A DNA stretch of 64,000 bases from Fictibacillus arsenicus. Lineage in GTDB: Bacteria; Bacillota; Bacilli; Bacillales; Fictibacillaceae. The position numbers were made by a program, and so were the translations under genes. The notes below the pieces were generated by a model, which saw only the letters and a program-made list of their open reading frames with translations, did no database searches and was not told the origin of the DNA. How positions within the stretch are numbered: the stretch's first letter is position 1; the number at the start of each line of letters is the position of its first letter. This document shows, piece after piece, positions 1,999 through 50,011 of the stretch. The DNA is taken from positions 3,782,001 to 3,846,000 of the forward strand of contig NZ_CP016761.1 in NCBI RefSeq assembly GCF_001642935.1, written 5' to 3'.

Positions 1999-2013
1999 TA
2001 CTGTGGCGAGGGA

Positions 2014-2041
2014 GGCTGACGGGTGTCAGCCTTCTTTTTTT
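2014..2041 (+). terminator. Rho-independent terminator after the lipoprotein gene
   Basis: GGCTGAC, a GGGT loop and GTCAGCC form a perfect 7-bp stem (2014-2031), followed by a T run to 2041. Confidence 0.88.
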
Positions 2042-2060: not shown

Positions 2061-2218
2061 TTTTACGGTACGTGTTCTTTTATTTATTATACGTTCGCTC
2101 AAGATGTATCGGTTTTCGCTCAAAAACACCAAGCTACGCTCAAAAAAGCCGTTCTACGCTCAGAATCTTCAAGCTGCGCTCAAAACACAGCAACTTACGC
2201 TCAGAAACCATTTTGTAT
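2061..2218 (+). repeat. GCTCA array 1: leader plus six 20-21 bp units
   Basis: The core GCTCA(A) recurs at 2097, 2118, 2138, 2158, 2178 and 2199, i.e. steps of 21, 20, 20, 20 and 21. Most units read TTCGCTCAAAA or TACGCTCAAAA followed by about 10 variable bases. The array is preceded by a leader (2061-2096) beginning TTTTACGGTACGTGTTCTT that recurs ahead of the arrays at 8838 and, inverted, at 18872-18910. It fills the gap between the convergent lipoprotein and upp genes. Frames across it look like an artefact of the period; no ribosome site supports translation. Confidence 0.85.
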
Positions 2219-8837: not shown

Positions 8838-8995
8838 ATTTACGGTACGTGTTCTTATATTTATTACACGTTTGCTCAGAATCACCGAGTTTCGCTCAAA
8901 AAAGACGATCTACGCTCAAGATCCTTTATCTTCGCTCAAACTGCCTTTCGTTTCGCTCAAAATCTCCTTTTTTTGCTCAAAGTAACTAAAATGAA
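8838..8995 (+). repeat. GCTCA array 2: leader plus six 20-21 bp units
   Basis: GCTCA at 8874, 8894, 8914, 8934, 8955 and 8975 (steps 20, 20, 20, 21, 20), mostly within TTCGCTCAAA. The leader at 8838-8873 is nearly the same as that of the array at 2061, with TTTACGGTACGTGTTCTTAT followed by an A/T stretch. The array lies between the convergent lipoprotein and gntK genes. Confidence 0.85.
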
Positions 8996-13569: not shown

Positions 13570-13666
13570 GGGCTTGGCAGGCGCCAAGCTTCAGATCATT
13601 GGTTTTGAAGGCACCAGAACTAGCCGAAAAAAGCCCTGTTAACAGTAATCCCACGAAAAACACCCA

Positions 13667-13750
13667 TGAATCCACGAGTTTTGGTCCTGAATCCAAAAAT
13701 TTTGGTGCTGAATCCAAAAGTTTTGGCTGTTTATCCACGAGTCTAAAATC
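13667..13750 (+). repeat. AATCCA array A: four 21-bp units
   Basis: T-(G/T)-(A/T)-ATCCA begins units at 13667, 13688, 13709 and 13730, exactly 21 bases apart. Two inner units contain the palindrome CCAAAA-n-TTTTGG. The array lies between the convergent GNAT and ywlG genes. Just before it, a GC-rich hairpin (13572-13589, GGCTTGGC and GCCAAGC) without a T tract follows the GNAT stop. Confidence 0.8.
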
Positions 13751-16423: not shown

Positions 16424-18646
16424 ATGGTCCATAACGTACCGGCCATTCCGGCAGCAGGAGAAAACATATGGCGGTTTTCTCCGTTCAAAACCGGTATTTC
16501 CCGCCAAAAAAGCATGACCTTTCGATTTATAAAGCAGGATGATGAGATCATCATGACCGAGAGCCAGGGTGAGCTTTTTGACATGTTCGGTCTCAAACAG
16601 GAAAACGTTCTGCAAAAAAGAATAGAAGATATCTTTCCGCAAGATATGGCCGTTTTTAAGAGAGAAGTTTACGAGAGAGCGTTAAAGGGAGAAAGTCTGA
16701 CGTACGAATCGAAGCTGAACGGCATTCCTTTTCTAGCAGCAATCGGTCCGATTTATAAAGATGGTGCTGTTTCTGAAGTTTACGGGTTTTGCGTGGATCT
16801 AAGCGAAAGGGTACAGGTAGAAACACAGCTCGCTGAAAGTGAACAGCGATTCAGGTCATTGATGGACCATAACATCGATGCCTTGTTCTCACTCGATCTG
16901 GACGGCAAATTCACTACAGTAAATAAGGCTTGTACCGATTTGACAGGTTACAGCGAAACCGAGCTCCTTAACATGACGTTCGATCCCCTAATAATGCCAG
17001 AACGAAAATCGATTGCGATCGAACAGTTTAATGACGCTTTAAATGGCAACTCTAAAATGCATGAAACACGCATTCGGCAGAAAAACGGAGAGATCCGCCA
17101 GATCACCTTTACCCTTACGCCTATTATCGTGCTGAACAAAATACATGGTGTATTTGGAATCGCGAAGGATGTTACAGCCAAAAGAGAAGCGGAAAAAGAG
17201 CTGAGAGAAACAAAGGATCTGCTTGAGTCTGTTATCTATCATTCAAGTGACGCCATTTCCGTTGTGCATTTAACGAATTATTCCGTAAAAGTGAACCCAG
17301 CTTTTGAGCTGATCTACGGATGGTCGCAAAGTGAACTGAACGACGATCTCTCTTCACACATGCTGCCGATCGTTCCTAAAGACAAAGCCGCAGAATCCGA
17401 AAGGCTGATGACGATCGTTAAACATGGCGGGTATGTAAAAGGCGTCGAAACGATCCGGCTGACAAAAAGCGGCAAACGCCTTAATGTGAGCCTTTCTCTA
17501 AGCCCTATTTACGGAGAGAATGGTGATGTAGTTGCCTTATCCGCTATTTCAAGGGATATCACAGAAAAAAAATTAAAAGAAAAAGCATTAAAAGAAAGCG
17601 AAGAAAAGTACCGGATTATCGCTGAGAACACGACTGATTTAATAGGAGTTGTAGACCTTGAGGGGAACGTAAAATACTTCTCACCTTCAAACAGGCTGCT
17701 GCTCGGCTTCGATCCGTCCATTTATGATGGGAAAAAGATTCAAGGCTTCTTCCATTCAGATGACAGACCAAAAGTGAAATTCGCGATCAACGAGATGGTC
17801 CAGACGCAAAAGCCTGTGAAATTTGAGGTAAGATGCAAGCATGCACACGGTCATTGGGTAACCCTTGAAGCGAACGCAACCCCAATCATCAATGATCTTG
17901 ATCAGCCAGAATCCTGTGTGGTTGTTGCCCGCGACCTTACTGAACGGAAAAAAACCGAGGAAATGCTCAGAAAATCAGACAAGCTCTCTGTACTCGGGCA
18001 GCTAGCAGCAGGTGTGGCACACGAGATCCGCAACCCGCTTACTTCAATTAGAGGGTTCTTACAGCTTCTCCAGTCAAAAGCATCAGAAGACAAAGATTAT
18101 TACGAGATCATGCTCTCAGAAATCGACCGAATCAACAGCATCGTAGGAGAGTTCATGCTGCTCGCGAAGCCGCAAGCCATGAATTTCACGAAAACAGACT
18201 TGAGGGATCTGCTCAGACATGTCATCTCGATCCTTGATACCCAAGCCATATTAACGAATGTTCAGATTTACTTTGAAAGTGAACCTGATCTACCTGAAAT
18301 CTGGTGTGTGGATAATCAGATCAAGCAAGTGTTTGTGAACATGCTGAAAAACGCAATTGAAGCGATGCCGACAGGCGGCTCCGTACATATTCACCTGCGA
18401 AAGCAAGAAAATCACGTAATCGCGTCCTTTATCGATCATGGCTGCGGAATTCCTGAAGAGCGTTTAGCGACACTCGGTGAACCTTTCTATACGACAAAGG
18501 ATAAAGGAACAGGTCTCGGCCTTATGATCTGTTATAAAATTGTGGAAAACCACCACGGAAAAATTTTAATCGACAGCAAAATTGATGAAGGAACGACTTT
18601 CTCGATCATGCTGCCGATTCATAAAAATAAGCCTGTGTCGCAATAG
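16424..18646 (+). CDS. Soluble four-PAS sporulation-type sensor histidine kinase
   Basis: 740 residues with no membrane segment. PAS domains start near 30, 140 (S-E-Q-R-F-R-S-L-M-D-H), 264 (L-L-E-S-V-I-Y-H-S-S-D) and 392 (S-E-E-K-Y-R-I-I-A-E-N). The dimerisation/phosphoacceptor helix holds His533 in V-A-H-E-I-R-N-P-L-T-S-I-R-G-F-L-Q-L-L, close to KinA/KinE-type sporulation kinases. The ATP-binding domain has the N box N-M-L-K-N-A-I-E-A-M-P (about 637) and G boxes D-H-G-C-G-I-P and G-T-G-L-G-L. Such kinases phosphorylate Spo0F, encoded at 45.4 kb here. There is no adjacent response regulator, consistent with an orphan phosphorelay input. GGGAGG precedes ATG 16424. Its TAG stop lies in the loop of its terminator. 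Confidence 0.9.
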   Translation: MVHNVPAIPAAGENIWRFSPFKTGISRQKSMTFRFIKQDDEIIMTESQGELFDMFGLKQENVLQKRIEDIFPQDMAVFKREVYERALKGESLTYESKLNGIPFLAAIGPIYKDGAVSEVYGFCVDLSERVQVETQLAESEQRFRSLMDHNIDALFSLDLDGKFTTVNKACTDLTGYSETELLNMTFDPLIMPERKSIAIEQFNDALNGNSKMHETRIRQKNGEIRQITFTLTPIIVLNKIHGVFGIAKDVTAKREAEKELRETKDLLESVIYHSSDAISVVHLTNYSVKVNPAFELIYGWSQSELNDDLSSHMLPIVPKDKAAESERLMTIVKHGGYVKGVETIRLTKSGKRLNVSLSLSPIYGENGDVVALSAISRDITEKKLKEKALKESEEKYRIIAENTTDLIGVVDLEGNVKYFSPSNRLLLGFDPSIYDGKKIQGFFHSDDRPKVKFAINEMVQTQKPVKFEVRCKHAHGHWVTLEANATPIINDLDQPESCVVVARDLTERKKTEEMLRKSDKLSVLGQLAAGVAHEIRNPLTSIRGFLQLLQSKASEDKDYYEIMLSEIDRINSIVGEFMLLAKPQAMNFTKTDLRDLLRHVISILDTQAILTNVQIYFESEPDLPEIWCVDNQIKQVFVNMLKNAIEAMPTGGSVHIHLRKQENHVIASFIDHGCGIPEERLATLGEPFYTTKDKGTGLGLMICYKIVENHHGKILIDSKIDEGTTFSIMLPIHKNKPVSQ

Positions 18647-18663
18647 ACACAGGCTTTTCTTTA
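18629..18663 (+). terminator. Terminator of the PAS kinase gene
   Basis: AAGCCTGTGTC and GACACAGGCTT form an 11-bp perfect stem; the loop contains the kinase stop codon. A T-rich tail follows. Confidence 0.9.
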
Positions 18664-18683: not shown

Positions 18684-18745
18684 CTGTTGATTTCCGCTCC
18701 AGGATGCTCGCTTTCCGCGGGGCGGTCGGTGAGTCCCCTCGAGGT
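18684..18745 (+). repeat. Truncated copy of the ~130-bp structured repeat
   Basis: Begins GTTGATTTCCGCTCCAGGAT, continues through the GCTCGCTTTCCGCGGGG and GGTGAG boxes, then breaks off after about 60 bases, right next to GCTCA array 3. Confidence 0.75.
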
Positions 18746-18752
18746 CTGTCTT

Positions 18753-18911
18753 CATTTTTAATTGCTTTGAGCGAAAAAGGAAGATTTTGAGCGAAACTAG
18801 AGGTAGTTTGAGCGAAACTAGATGATCTTGAGCGTAACTCGGTTTTTTTGAGCGTAACTCAAAGAATCTGAGCGAACGTGTAATAAATATAAGAACACGT
18901 ACCGTAAAATT
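18753..18911 (-). repeat. GCTCA array 3 (inverted): six units plus leader
   Basis: TGAGC at 18768, 18788, 18809, 18829, 18849 and 18869 (steps 20, 21, 20, 20, 20). Read on the minus strand, the leader at 18872-18911 comes first, with the same TTTACGGTACGTGTTCTTAT found at the arrays near 2061 and 8838. It sits between the convergent kinase and tsaC genes. Confidence 0.85.
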
Positions 18912-20561: not shown

Positions 20562-20689
20562 CTTCAACTCTCCCCTGTTTTTATATAGATTCTTTTCTAA
20601 AGGTTATTTCTTAAATTTTGTTTAAAGGCTCTTCTCTACAAGATTGTTGCTTTTGAATCGTTTTTTCATTTTCATCATTGGCAAGTTTA

Positions 20690-20877
20690 TTGGAGTGCAA
20701 GGTGCGAGACTCCTCGAAAATGAAAAATCACATTTTCTTCGTGCGATGTAACGCTGACGAAGCCTTCCTTGTCCTGCGGGATCAGCGGGACAGGTGAGAC
20801 TCCTAATGGTGCATAGCGCCAAGGAGGCTCACCGCACGCCCCGCGGAAAGCGAGCATCCTGTAACGGAAATCAACCA
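20690..20877 (-). repeat. ~130-bp structured repeat, long form, inverted
   Basis: Reads in reverse order relative to the other copies: TTGGAGTGCAAGGTGCGAGA at its start, GTGAGACTCCT and AGGAGGCTCACC as the inner inverted repeat, and CCGCGGAAAGCGAGCATCC near its end. About 60 extra bases (20714-20780) between the outer and inner boxes are shared, inverted, with the copy at 42962. It occupies most of the gap before spoIIR; the rest (20562-20690) shows nothing clear. Confidence 0.85.
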
Positions 20878-20915
20878 CTTTCAAGGGCTGCAAATTTTAC
20901 TGAAACCGTCTAGTT

Positions 20916-37299: not shown

Positions 37300-37404
37300 T
37301 GAAACCAGAAGTTTAGAGCATGAATCCAAAAGGTTGATGCTCCATTCCAAAAATTTTGGGTCTGAATCCAAAAATTTTTACCAATTATCGACGAGTCGAC
37401 AACC
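37300..37404 (+). repeat. AATCCA array B: five 21-bp units
   Basis: Units begin at 37300, 37321, 37342, 37363 and 37384, exactly 21 bases apart (TGAAACCA, TGAATCCA, CCATTCCA, TGAATCCA, ATTATCGA as successive cores). Several continue AAAATTTT. The last unit is followed by a run with GTCGAC and TTCGAC words resembling the tail of the array at 13667. It lies between tdk and the YhcN-like gene. Confidence 0.78.
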
Positions 37405-38587: not shown

Positions 38588-38651
38588 GTCAATTTCACTC
38601 CTTCTGCCCTGTTTCCTATGCGGAAGCAGAGTTAAATAAACACATAAAAAC

Positions 38652-47703: not shown

Positions 47704-47810
47704 CTGGTGGTGTTTTATTATTGTCTCATTTGACTAGGCCAGTCTATGTGCCAGGCTTTTATCTTTTTTACGAAGATTATTTTTCATGAAAAACACAACC
47801 TAATGATGAT

Positions 47811-47890
47811 TTCGTCAAAAAAGGAGGTATATCGTCAAAAGTTGGAGCTATTTCGTCAAATAATTTGTTTTATCGTCAATAATAAGCCGC
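47811..47890 (+). repeat. CGTCA array: four 20-21 bp units
   Basis: TTCGTCAAAA or ATCGTCAAAA at 47811, 47831, 47852 and 47872 (steps 20, 21, 20), with GGAG recurring mid-unit in two. It lies between ywjG/IS3 and the convergent pyrG gene. It has the same period and the same AAAA-ended layout as the GCTCA and AATCCA arrays, but a different core. Confidence 0.75.
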
Positions 47891-48002
47891 ATTCAACAAA
47901 ACAGCCCCCTCCACTCATTAATGTCCACTCCCCAAGGACACTCCCCGTACGTGCCAAAAAAAACGGCAGCCCCCTAAAAAAGGAACTGCCCGTACATATG
48001 AT

Positions 48003-49906: not shown

Positions 49907-50011
49907 TCAATCCATAAATTCAGCCTATGTATCCACGAATTTTGGTGGTGAATCCAAAAGTTTTGGTCTCTAATCCACGTGTTTTGCTCTTCAATCCACA
50001 TTTAGTCACAT
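49907..50011 (+). repeat. AATCCA array C: five 21-bp units
   Basis: Units at 49907, 49928, 49949, 49970 and 49991, each exactly 21 bases apart, with ATCCA cores; the middle ones continue AAAAGTTTTGGT. It lies between the rpoE terminator and the pyrG promoter, so both flanking genes are on the minus strand. Confidence 0.8.

Follow-up and report, generated by a model that had tools for sequence, protein, structure and literature searches.

The DNA analysed here (the window) is a 64 kb stretch at positions 3,782,001–3,846,000 of the Fictibacillus arsenicus genome, which is a single 4.06 Mb contig. Three copies of a short intergenic element were identified in it, each of approximately 146 bp and made up of a 33 bp leader followed by six sites at 20–21 bp steps. 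In window coordinates, the copies and the terminators that accompany them are as follows:

2013..2041, plus strand: intrinsic terminator of a DUF3889 gene, approximately 20 bp upstream of the leader of copy 1
2062..2094, plus strand: leader 1 of copy 1, beginning TTTACGGTACGTGTTCTT..., AT-rich between ACGTGT and ATACGT
2094..2206, plus strand: six CGCTCA units of copy 1, steps 21, 20, 20, 20, 21
8839..8871, plus strand: leader 1 of copy 2
8873..8983, plus strand: six (C/T)GCTCA units of copy 2, steps 20, 20, 20, 21, 20
18630..18658, plus strand: intrinsic terminator of a histidine-kinase gene, flanking copy 3 on its unit side
18765..18877, minus strand: six CGCTCA units of copy 3, steps 20, 20, 20, 21, 20
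18876..18908, minus strand: leader 1 of copy 3, leader start 18908

Hereafter, leader 1 denotes the 33 bp leader of this element and type-1 arrays are those behind it. An earlier note on this DNA had described three arrays of six GCTCA units at 20–21 bp, and re-reading the GCTCA starts placed them where it had claimed (2097, 2118, 2138, 2158, 2178 and 2199 in copy 1; 8874, 8894, 8914, 8934, 8955 and 8975 in copy 2; 18873, 18853, 18833, 18813, 18792 and 18772 on the minus strand in copy 3). The third copy is inverted, as the note had it, and its leader, which starts at 18908 on the minus strand, still lies ahead of the units. The near-identical leader is common to all three copies, although its length is approximately 33 bp and not the 35–40 bp claimed; likewise, GCTCA is the array core of the window copies but only one of several unit types behind leader 1. 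Pfam annotation of the genes neighbouring the three copies returned DUF3889, UPRTase, an ORF without a Pfam match, FGGY kinase, histidine kinase and Sua5, with no rep or par gene among them. A terminator scan placed a T-run 24 bp ahead of the leader of copy 1, and a similar hairpin is present there in three relatives.

A genome-wide search for the leader and for phased units, as the note had proposed, was positive on both counts. A leader 20-mer with up to three mismatches gave 63 matches in the host genome against 0 for the reversed pattern, and three CGCTCA motifs at 20–21 bp steps gave 105 against 1. One leader match (845361), which has a poor leader and no array, was set aside to give the 62 copies counted below. 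Reading of the 63 extracted copies showed a common anatomy of TTTACGGTACGTGTTCTTWTATTTATTACACGT, then six units in most copies, with steps in the host genome mainly of 20 or 21 bp; across 196 extracted sequences, including a few spurious ones, the autocorrelation peaked at 20–21 and 40–42. Of 18 Fictibacillus genomes, 17 carried leader 1, at 12–83 copies each (up to two mismatches), the exception being G017. A leader 18-mer was found in at least 118 stretches of Fictibacillus contigs among the 120 matches listed, the two remaining stretches (L143 and L161) being taken as chance matches, and a 158 bp array query had no match in 42 genomes outside the genus.

The earlier note had also placed all three copies between convergent genes and considered them possible insulators of such pairs. 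ORF and Pfam data agree for the three window gaps, but genome-wide only 24 of 62 gaps are convergent: read from leader to units, ORF calling gave neighbour orientations of −− (25), +− (24), ++ (8) and −+ (5). The suggestion of a convergent-gene insulator is weakened to that extent, although the gene on the unit side is directed at the array in 49/62 cases and, of the 32 leader-side genes in sense, 22 have a terminator T-run ahead of the leader. The orientation of the leader-side gene is itself random (32/62 in sense). The same strict scan, which left out two more leader-only copies (963043 and 2270707), found that 21 of 48 unit-side genes are separated from the units by a T-run.

Orientation also followed the direction of replication. 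The sign of the GC skew flips in the interval 2.19–2.27 Mb, and the ORF at the contig start is IMP-dehydrogenase-like, a gene that we take to lie near the origin in B. subtilis; the terminus was therefore put at 2.2 Mb and the origin at approximately 4.04 Mb. On this basis, the leader-to-units direction points toward the origin in 51/62 copies (P=3e-7) and, in convergent gaps alone, in 20/24 (P=0.0015); with the terminus set at half the contig instead, the counts are 50/62 and 19/24. Gene strand bias was rejected as the cause, since either orientation meets the gene rule in convergent gaps and these still show 20/24. Leader matches in two other species, counted whether or not an array follows and with the contig start taken as the origin, pointed toward the origin in 25/31 (G015) and 23/26 (G016) cases, and each of these genomes has one copy where the skew flips sign; in G007 the count was 8/12, which was non-significant (P=0.39). 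Leader-1 copies grow sparser toward the terminus (KS P=0.004).

The arrays are typed: sites are uniform inside one array and varied among arrays, and the spacers are free. Leader 1 precedes CGCTCA, C(G/A)CCC and CACGCA units in the host genome, and relatives add further types behind it, for example CACCTG/CACCGA and CGCTCATAGA. Positions 1, 3 and 5 of the core are C and nearly constant, so that positions 2, 4 and 6 set the type. Within-array identity at these three positions was 0.82, 0.88 and 0.69, versus 0.59, 0.52 and 0.57 when units were shuffled between 55 arrays (z of 14, 22 and 9); the 55 are the 63 copies minus six and minus two low-scoring arrays, with the leader-proximal unit left out. 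Nine of 11 spacer positions fell within 1.5 sd of the shuffled value, the other two having z of 4.8 and 2.1. Mixed-type arrays are present too (e.g. L129, L189 and L194).

A further family of arrays has a leader of its own, TTTGTCGA (leader 2), which contains the word TTGTCGA and which we presume to resemble a Spo0A box. The following other phased arrays lie in the window:

13666..13738, no strand assigned: (A/T)ATCCA(C/A) phased array, 21 bp steps, between convergent GNAT and DUF436 genes, with TGTCGA at one end
37305..37402, minus strand: AATCCA-type phased array behind a TTGTCGA leader
47809..47901, no strand assigned: TCGTCAAAA phased array, 20–21 bp steps, without a recognised leader
49909..49999, no strand assigned: AATCCA-type phased array of five units, 21 bp steps, from a 6-mer scan without a control

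The (A/T)ATCCA(C/A) or ATCCACA site of the first, second and fourth of these presumably resembles a DnaA box. Toward the origin pointed only 2/6 leader-2 arrays in the host sequence. At 900859 (minus strand) of the host genome, leader 1 is followed by ATCCACAA-type units, which unites the two array families in one element. The sequence GCTTGTCGAACCRCC, which contains the TTGTCGA word of leader 2, alternates with CGCTCA units at host positions 345082 and 347402 and in L149, L166 and L191.

Arrays with the same geometry and other sites are frequent in Fictibacillus and present in some other Bacillales. When at least four near-identical 7-mers at 19–22 bp steps were sought in the window and the 120 listed leader-18-mer stretches, 128 arrays were found. 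Leader 1 was absent from 22 of these, a few of which appear by eye to be coding, and shuffled copies of 60 of the stretches yielded none. A sample of 400 kb of host-genome stretches at round coordinates plus the window held 20 arrays of period 20–21, three of which are the leader-1 arrays of the window, compared to 0–7 arrays at periods 9–18 and 23–45; periods 19 and 22 fall within the flanks of the peak. Sites of the further host arrays include ATCCACA, ATCACATAAAA, ATCCCACGTTA, ATCTCACGA and ATCAGCAAAA, among others, and those in relatives include GGCCTATAAA, AGACCTAATT, GGCTCATAAA and TTACCGTGA. The motif TGTC(G/A)A was found near 22 of 73 leaderless arrays. Phased sequence (z>3) followed TTGTCGA in 22/128 cases, the lowest of which include one coding case and two that adjoin leader-1 arrays, versus 22/890 for four control heptamers; a fifth control, TTCTGAG, gave 25/213 and is part of CGCTCAGAA units.

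Three CGCTCA motifs at 19–22 bp steps occurred in 33 of 299 Bacillales genomes and 19 of 116 genera, with eight of the 33 being Fictibacillus. The reversed control was positive in 23/299 genomes, with 96 matches against 1,330, and outside the genus the pattern was found in 25 genomes and the control in 17; single matches outside the genus therefore carry little weight. Eight genomes from five families outside the genus nonetheless had at least 20 matches (20–246), against a control maximum of 16 outside the genus. Some matches to the pattern (L228, L229 and L237) look by eye like repeats within coding sequence. Intergenic arrays read from six of these eight genomes contained 3 to 22 units. Long phased arrays of up to 22 units, some alternating two 20–21 bp units, were seen in L278, L291 and L293, from other Bacillales families. 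A scan of 340 kb stretches from 19 genomes, two of them Fictibacillus, yielded two phased arrays, both in a sister genus; 15 of the 19 had given no match to the CGCTCA pattern and four lay outside that search.

Comparison with relatives showed that the parts of the element evolve differently. Over 32 orthologous pairs, which include one host site matched twice to one relative, identity amounted to 0.904 in the cores, 0.928 in leader bases 19–33, 0.745 in the spacers and 0.888 in the genes; the value of 0.981 for leader bases 1–18 is inflated, as retrieval of most relatives relied on those bases matching exactly. Amongst 160 orthologous spacings, 117 were unchanged and 26 had switched between 20 and 21, leaving 143 at 20–21. 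Spacings of 20 gained a base 12 times and lost one twice, and spacings of 21 lost a base 14 times and never gained one. The other 17 (three to 19, four to 23, one to 27 and nine much shorter) are tentatively ascribed to lost units and to pairs of differing type. Spacing length is thus kept near two turns, and the sequence of the spacers is free.

The comparison of orthologous gaps that the earlier note had called for revealed gaps that are empty (L154 and L199), gaps with the same type and gaps with another array type or family. The gap of copy 1 has like terminators in four species, and holds CGCTCA in the host and L158, CACGCA in L176 and CGCTCAGT in L195. Site 245909 is CCC-type in the host genome and CGCTCA in L128, L138 and L160, and site 1143259 is CCC in the host and CGCTCA in L210. 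Gaps orthologous to the host leader-1 arrays at 985946 and 619705 hold leader-2 arrays (L162:4978–5088 and L168:6808–6881). Fewer than ten of 62 orthologous pairs lack the leader (ten were flagged, and two of the six inspected do have it). Related copies with differing flanks match from leader to last unit, approximately positions 0 to 145, and then mostly diverge, some of them also matching over 15–60 bp before the leader or further after the last unit. One subfamily accompanies a second dispersed repeat, and one copy sits inside that repeat. A dispersed GC-rich repeat, GTTGATTGGAGYGCAAGGTGCGAGAC...CGGAAAGCGAGCATCCTGGAGCGGAAATCAA, was seen at 20625–20911 and approximately 18685–18760 of the window and in many host-genome stretches, and the array at 2822609 of the host genome is contained in one of its copies.

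We tentatively favour the explanation that the element acts at the level of DNA, as an iteron-like platform for a putative oligomeric protein, and that it spread as a mobile repeat and was retained by selection. A leader site and six direct repeats two helical turns apart would put all sites on one face of the DNA. An oligomeric DNA-binding protein, or paralogues of differing specificity, might nucleate at the leader and then occupy all six sites in a cooperative manner, much like Rep or ParR proteins on iterons. The resulting nucleoprotein block could form a polar boundary where genes end, with the replication fork arriving from the unit side. Copies would have been dispersed as non-autonomous mobile repeats and afterwards kept for boundary function, and a gap could therefore swap array type yet keep the layout. 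Two suggestions of the earlier note bear on this account: an array of protein-binding sites phased on one face appears the best-supported reading, to judge from the 143/160 spacings at 20–21 bp and the diverged spacers, and a mobile short element fits as regards spread, given the copies that match from leader to last unit within unrelated flanks. Base-level uniformity, free spacers, near-fixed phase, terminator proximity and replication polarity together argue for action at the level of DNA over RNA, and cooperative binding by an oligomer is favoured because it fits these DNA-level features and because curvature is probably a by-product (see below).

Several points count against a protein platform. 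A single protein would not require uniformity within arrays and variety between them, and we have assumed several paralogous binding proteins to fit the types. The polarity may stem from strand-specific insertion and not from function, and the number of units outside the genus is not six but 3 to 22. If the platform nevertheless exists, dozens or more phase-locked assemblies tied to replication would sit at gene ends, uncovered by the annotation examined. A broader proposal, which we consider speculative, is that some Bacillales carry a large class of elements defined by geometry, with approximately six sites two turns apart, a site word uniform per array and few leaders, which would form polar nucleoprotein boundaries set against the fork (for leader 1) and be read by a diverging protein family as bacterial typed insulators. 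Under the platform reading, the typed sites would offer a direct handle on partner proteins.

The main rival is a selfish element, a reading that we regard as possible but doubtful, in which leader and iterons would be transposase sites, the element would be moved in trans and polarity would arise from insertion into lagging-strand ssDNA, as in IS200/IS605. The presence of related copies among unrelated flanks, of one array inside a copy of another dispersed repeat, of replication polarity (51/62 toward the origin) and of orthologous gaps in L154 and L199 without the element are all consistent with this. IS608 and ISDra2 are reported to target the lagging strand (PMC6006769). Each of 18 Fictibacillus genomes also carries one conserved Y1 (HUH) transposase-like gene (G000:C1:3685349–3685681, L346; loci L340–L350), with extra copies in G003 and G009. 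The leader word ACGGTAC, sought up to 480 bp upstream or 330 bp downstream, lies beside the Y1 gene in 5 of 11 genomes versus approximately 0.05 expected per genome, where four of the five cases may be one inherited case, and the gene is therefore a candidate for such a strand-specific route; owing to this adjacency, the selfish reading gained slightly and the platform lost slightly.

Other features of the Y1 loci and of the copies themselves speak against selfish movement. G017, which is without leader 1, still has the Y1 gene and ACGGTAC on both its sides. Palindromes upstream of the Y1 gene are of the GGGG.CAG/CTG.CCCC kind in 9/11 loci, unlike leader 1. Leader 1 itself (up to four mismatches) was present in none of eight Y1 loci, six of which hold the conserved gene, but its word ACGGTAC adjoins the gene in 5 of 11 genomes, as noted above. 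The palindrome GGGGTACGGTACC was noted on both sides of the Y1 gene in G017. Neither a conserved right end nor a target duplication was seen amongst the copies; no inverted leader copy was found by eye at the far end, and the empty sites are too unclean to show a target duplication. Cores and leader are kept in orthologues, and window copy 2 had no match in phage or plasmid records. Were the selfish reading correct, the element would be a mobile one that inserts in a strand-specific manner and whose end structure is unusual. Under either reading, it represents an intergenic element class in a well-studied order, recurring in more than one family.

An RNA-level role is unlikely. Rho prefers C-rich RNA, and the cores of type-1 units are rich in C and poor in G when read on the leader strand, such that units in read-through or antisense RNA might load Rho or bind protein and back up the many terminators that adjoin arrays. 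RNA is flexible, yet 143/160 spacings stay at 20–21. Orientation moreover differs by family: the leader-side gene of type-1 arrays is random (32/62) and the unit-side gene faces the array in 49/62, but when leaderless arrays are given a direction by their C excess, 24/30 have an upstream gene in sense, with 7 further arrays inside ORFs set aside. Rho sites were judged to fit less well on account of this inconsistency, and predicted RNA folding of the three window arrays was ordinary on both strands (z −1.8 to +1.2). A Rut-site map of B. subtilis is in print (PMC12350095).

Structural DNA is another improbable explanation, whereby in-phase repeats would curve the DNA, which would wrap on gyrase or an architectural protein or pin supercoils, with sequence secondary. 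In a sample of 57 type-1 arrays (63 minus six; wedge model), predicted curvature exceeded that of dinucleotide shuffles (mean z 2.7, with 28/57 above 2, compared to 3/80 random genomic stretches) and dropped when phase was broken. Only 7/36 leaderless arrays exceeded z 2, however, in a set without three arrays that are coding by eye (L141, L122 and L112:157), and curvature would not require base-level typing of sites. Being raised in leader-1 arrays with only 7/36 others standing out, curvature is probably a by-product. Passive, functionless tandem duplications of 20–21 bp that decay are very improbable: similar spacers in some arrays (L119 and L114) imply that units do duplicate, and long near-perfect arrays exist in other genera, but the sites resemble one another although spacer similarity is at background, and between species they are conserved and the spacers are not. 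CRISPR repeats are approximately 23–47 bp with spacers of similar length, and the earlier note was right to exclude a CRISPR, as the whole unit here is 20–21 bp with a core of 5–6 bp and, at the four orthologous sites aligned and the further gaps inspected, arrays match unit by unit or differ wholly, with no leader-end growth by new spacers.

Several known systems resemble the element in part. Iteron arrays and ParR/ParB-type centromeres are tandem direct repeats approximately two turns apart and uniform per array. The arrays described here share with plasmid iteron origins and such centromeres the helically phased, uniform, family-specific direct repeats beside an AT-rich stretch, but are chromosomal, occur in approximately sixty copies, show replication polarity and have no initiator or partition gene at the window copies. 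The ends of Tn7-, TniA- and Mu-type transposons have a conserved tip followed by several transposase sites of approximately 20 bp; the present element differs in being one-sided and conserved in orthologues, with no partner end or transposase seen beside copies. Like bcr1 and other Bacillus cereus repeats, it is a short intergenic mobile repeat in a genus of Bacillales; by description it differs in that, to our knowledge, no array of typed, phased sites has been reported for bcr1. REP/BIME repeats with their RAYT transposase are likewise high-copy and intergenic, and several types may occur per genome (PMC6006769; PMC2817692). REP/BIME are palindromic and often in inverted pairs, unlike the direct repeats at 20–21 bp seen here, and the palindromes of the Fictibacillus Y1 loci are different ones. 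Reviews of iteron origins and centromeres (PMC4980987; PMC5043065) and a paper on Bacillus cereus repeats (PMC6542083) are in print.

The TAACTGA repeats of Beggiatoaceae are also many intergenic sets of short direct repeats without a known role, in which a single heptamer reportedly occurs two to six times, in most cases directly ahead of a start codon (PMC4679880); in contrast, several site types occur here, mostly at gene ends. RemA of B. subtilis is described as a ring protein proposed to wrap DNA, with 7 bp AT-rich regions at 3 bp gaps upstream of promoters (PMC8481266). Repetitive, poorly conserved sites are a shared feature, with at least six protected regions in the RemA case, but RemA was rejected, as site spacing and composition differ from the GC-containing cores at 20–21 bp and gene ends seen here. 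The open-access papers searched held no earlier description of such an element, and Rfam gave no gathering-level match over the window arrays and none at E≤1 over copies 1 and 2. Elsewhere in the window, Rfam placed an L31-Firmicutes ribosomal protein leader at 38598–38631 on the minus strand.
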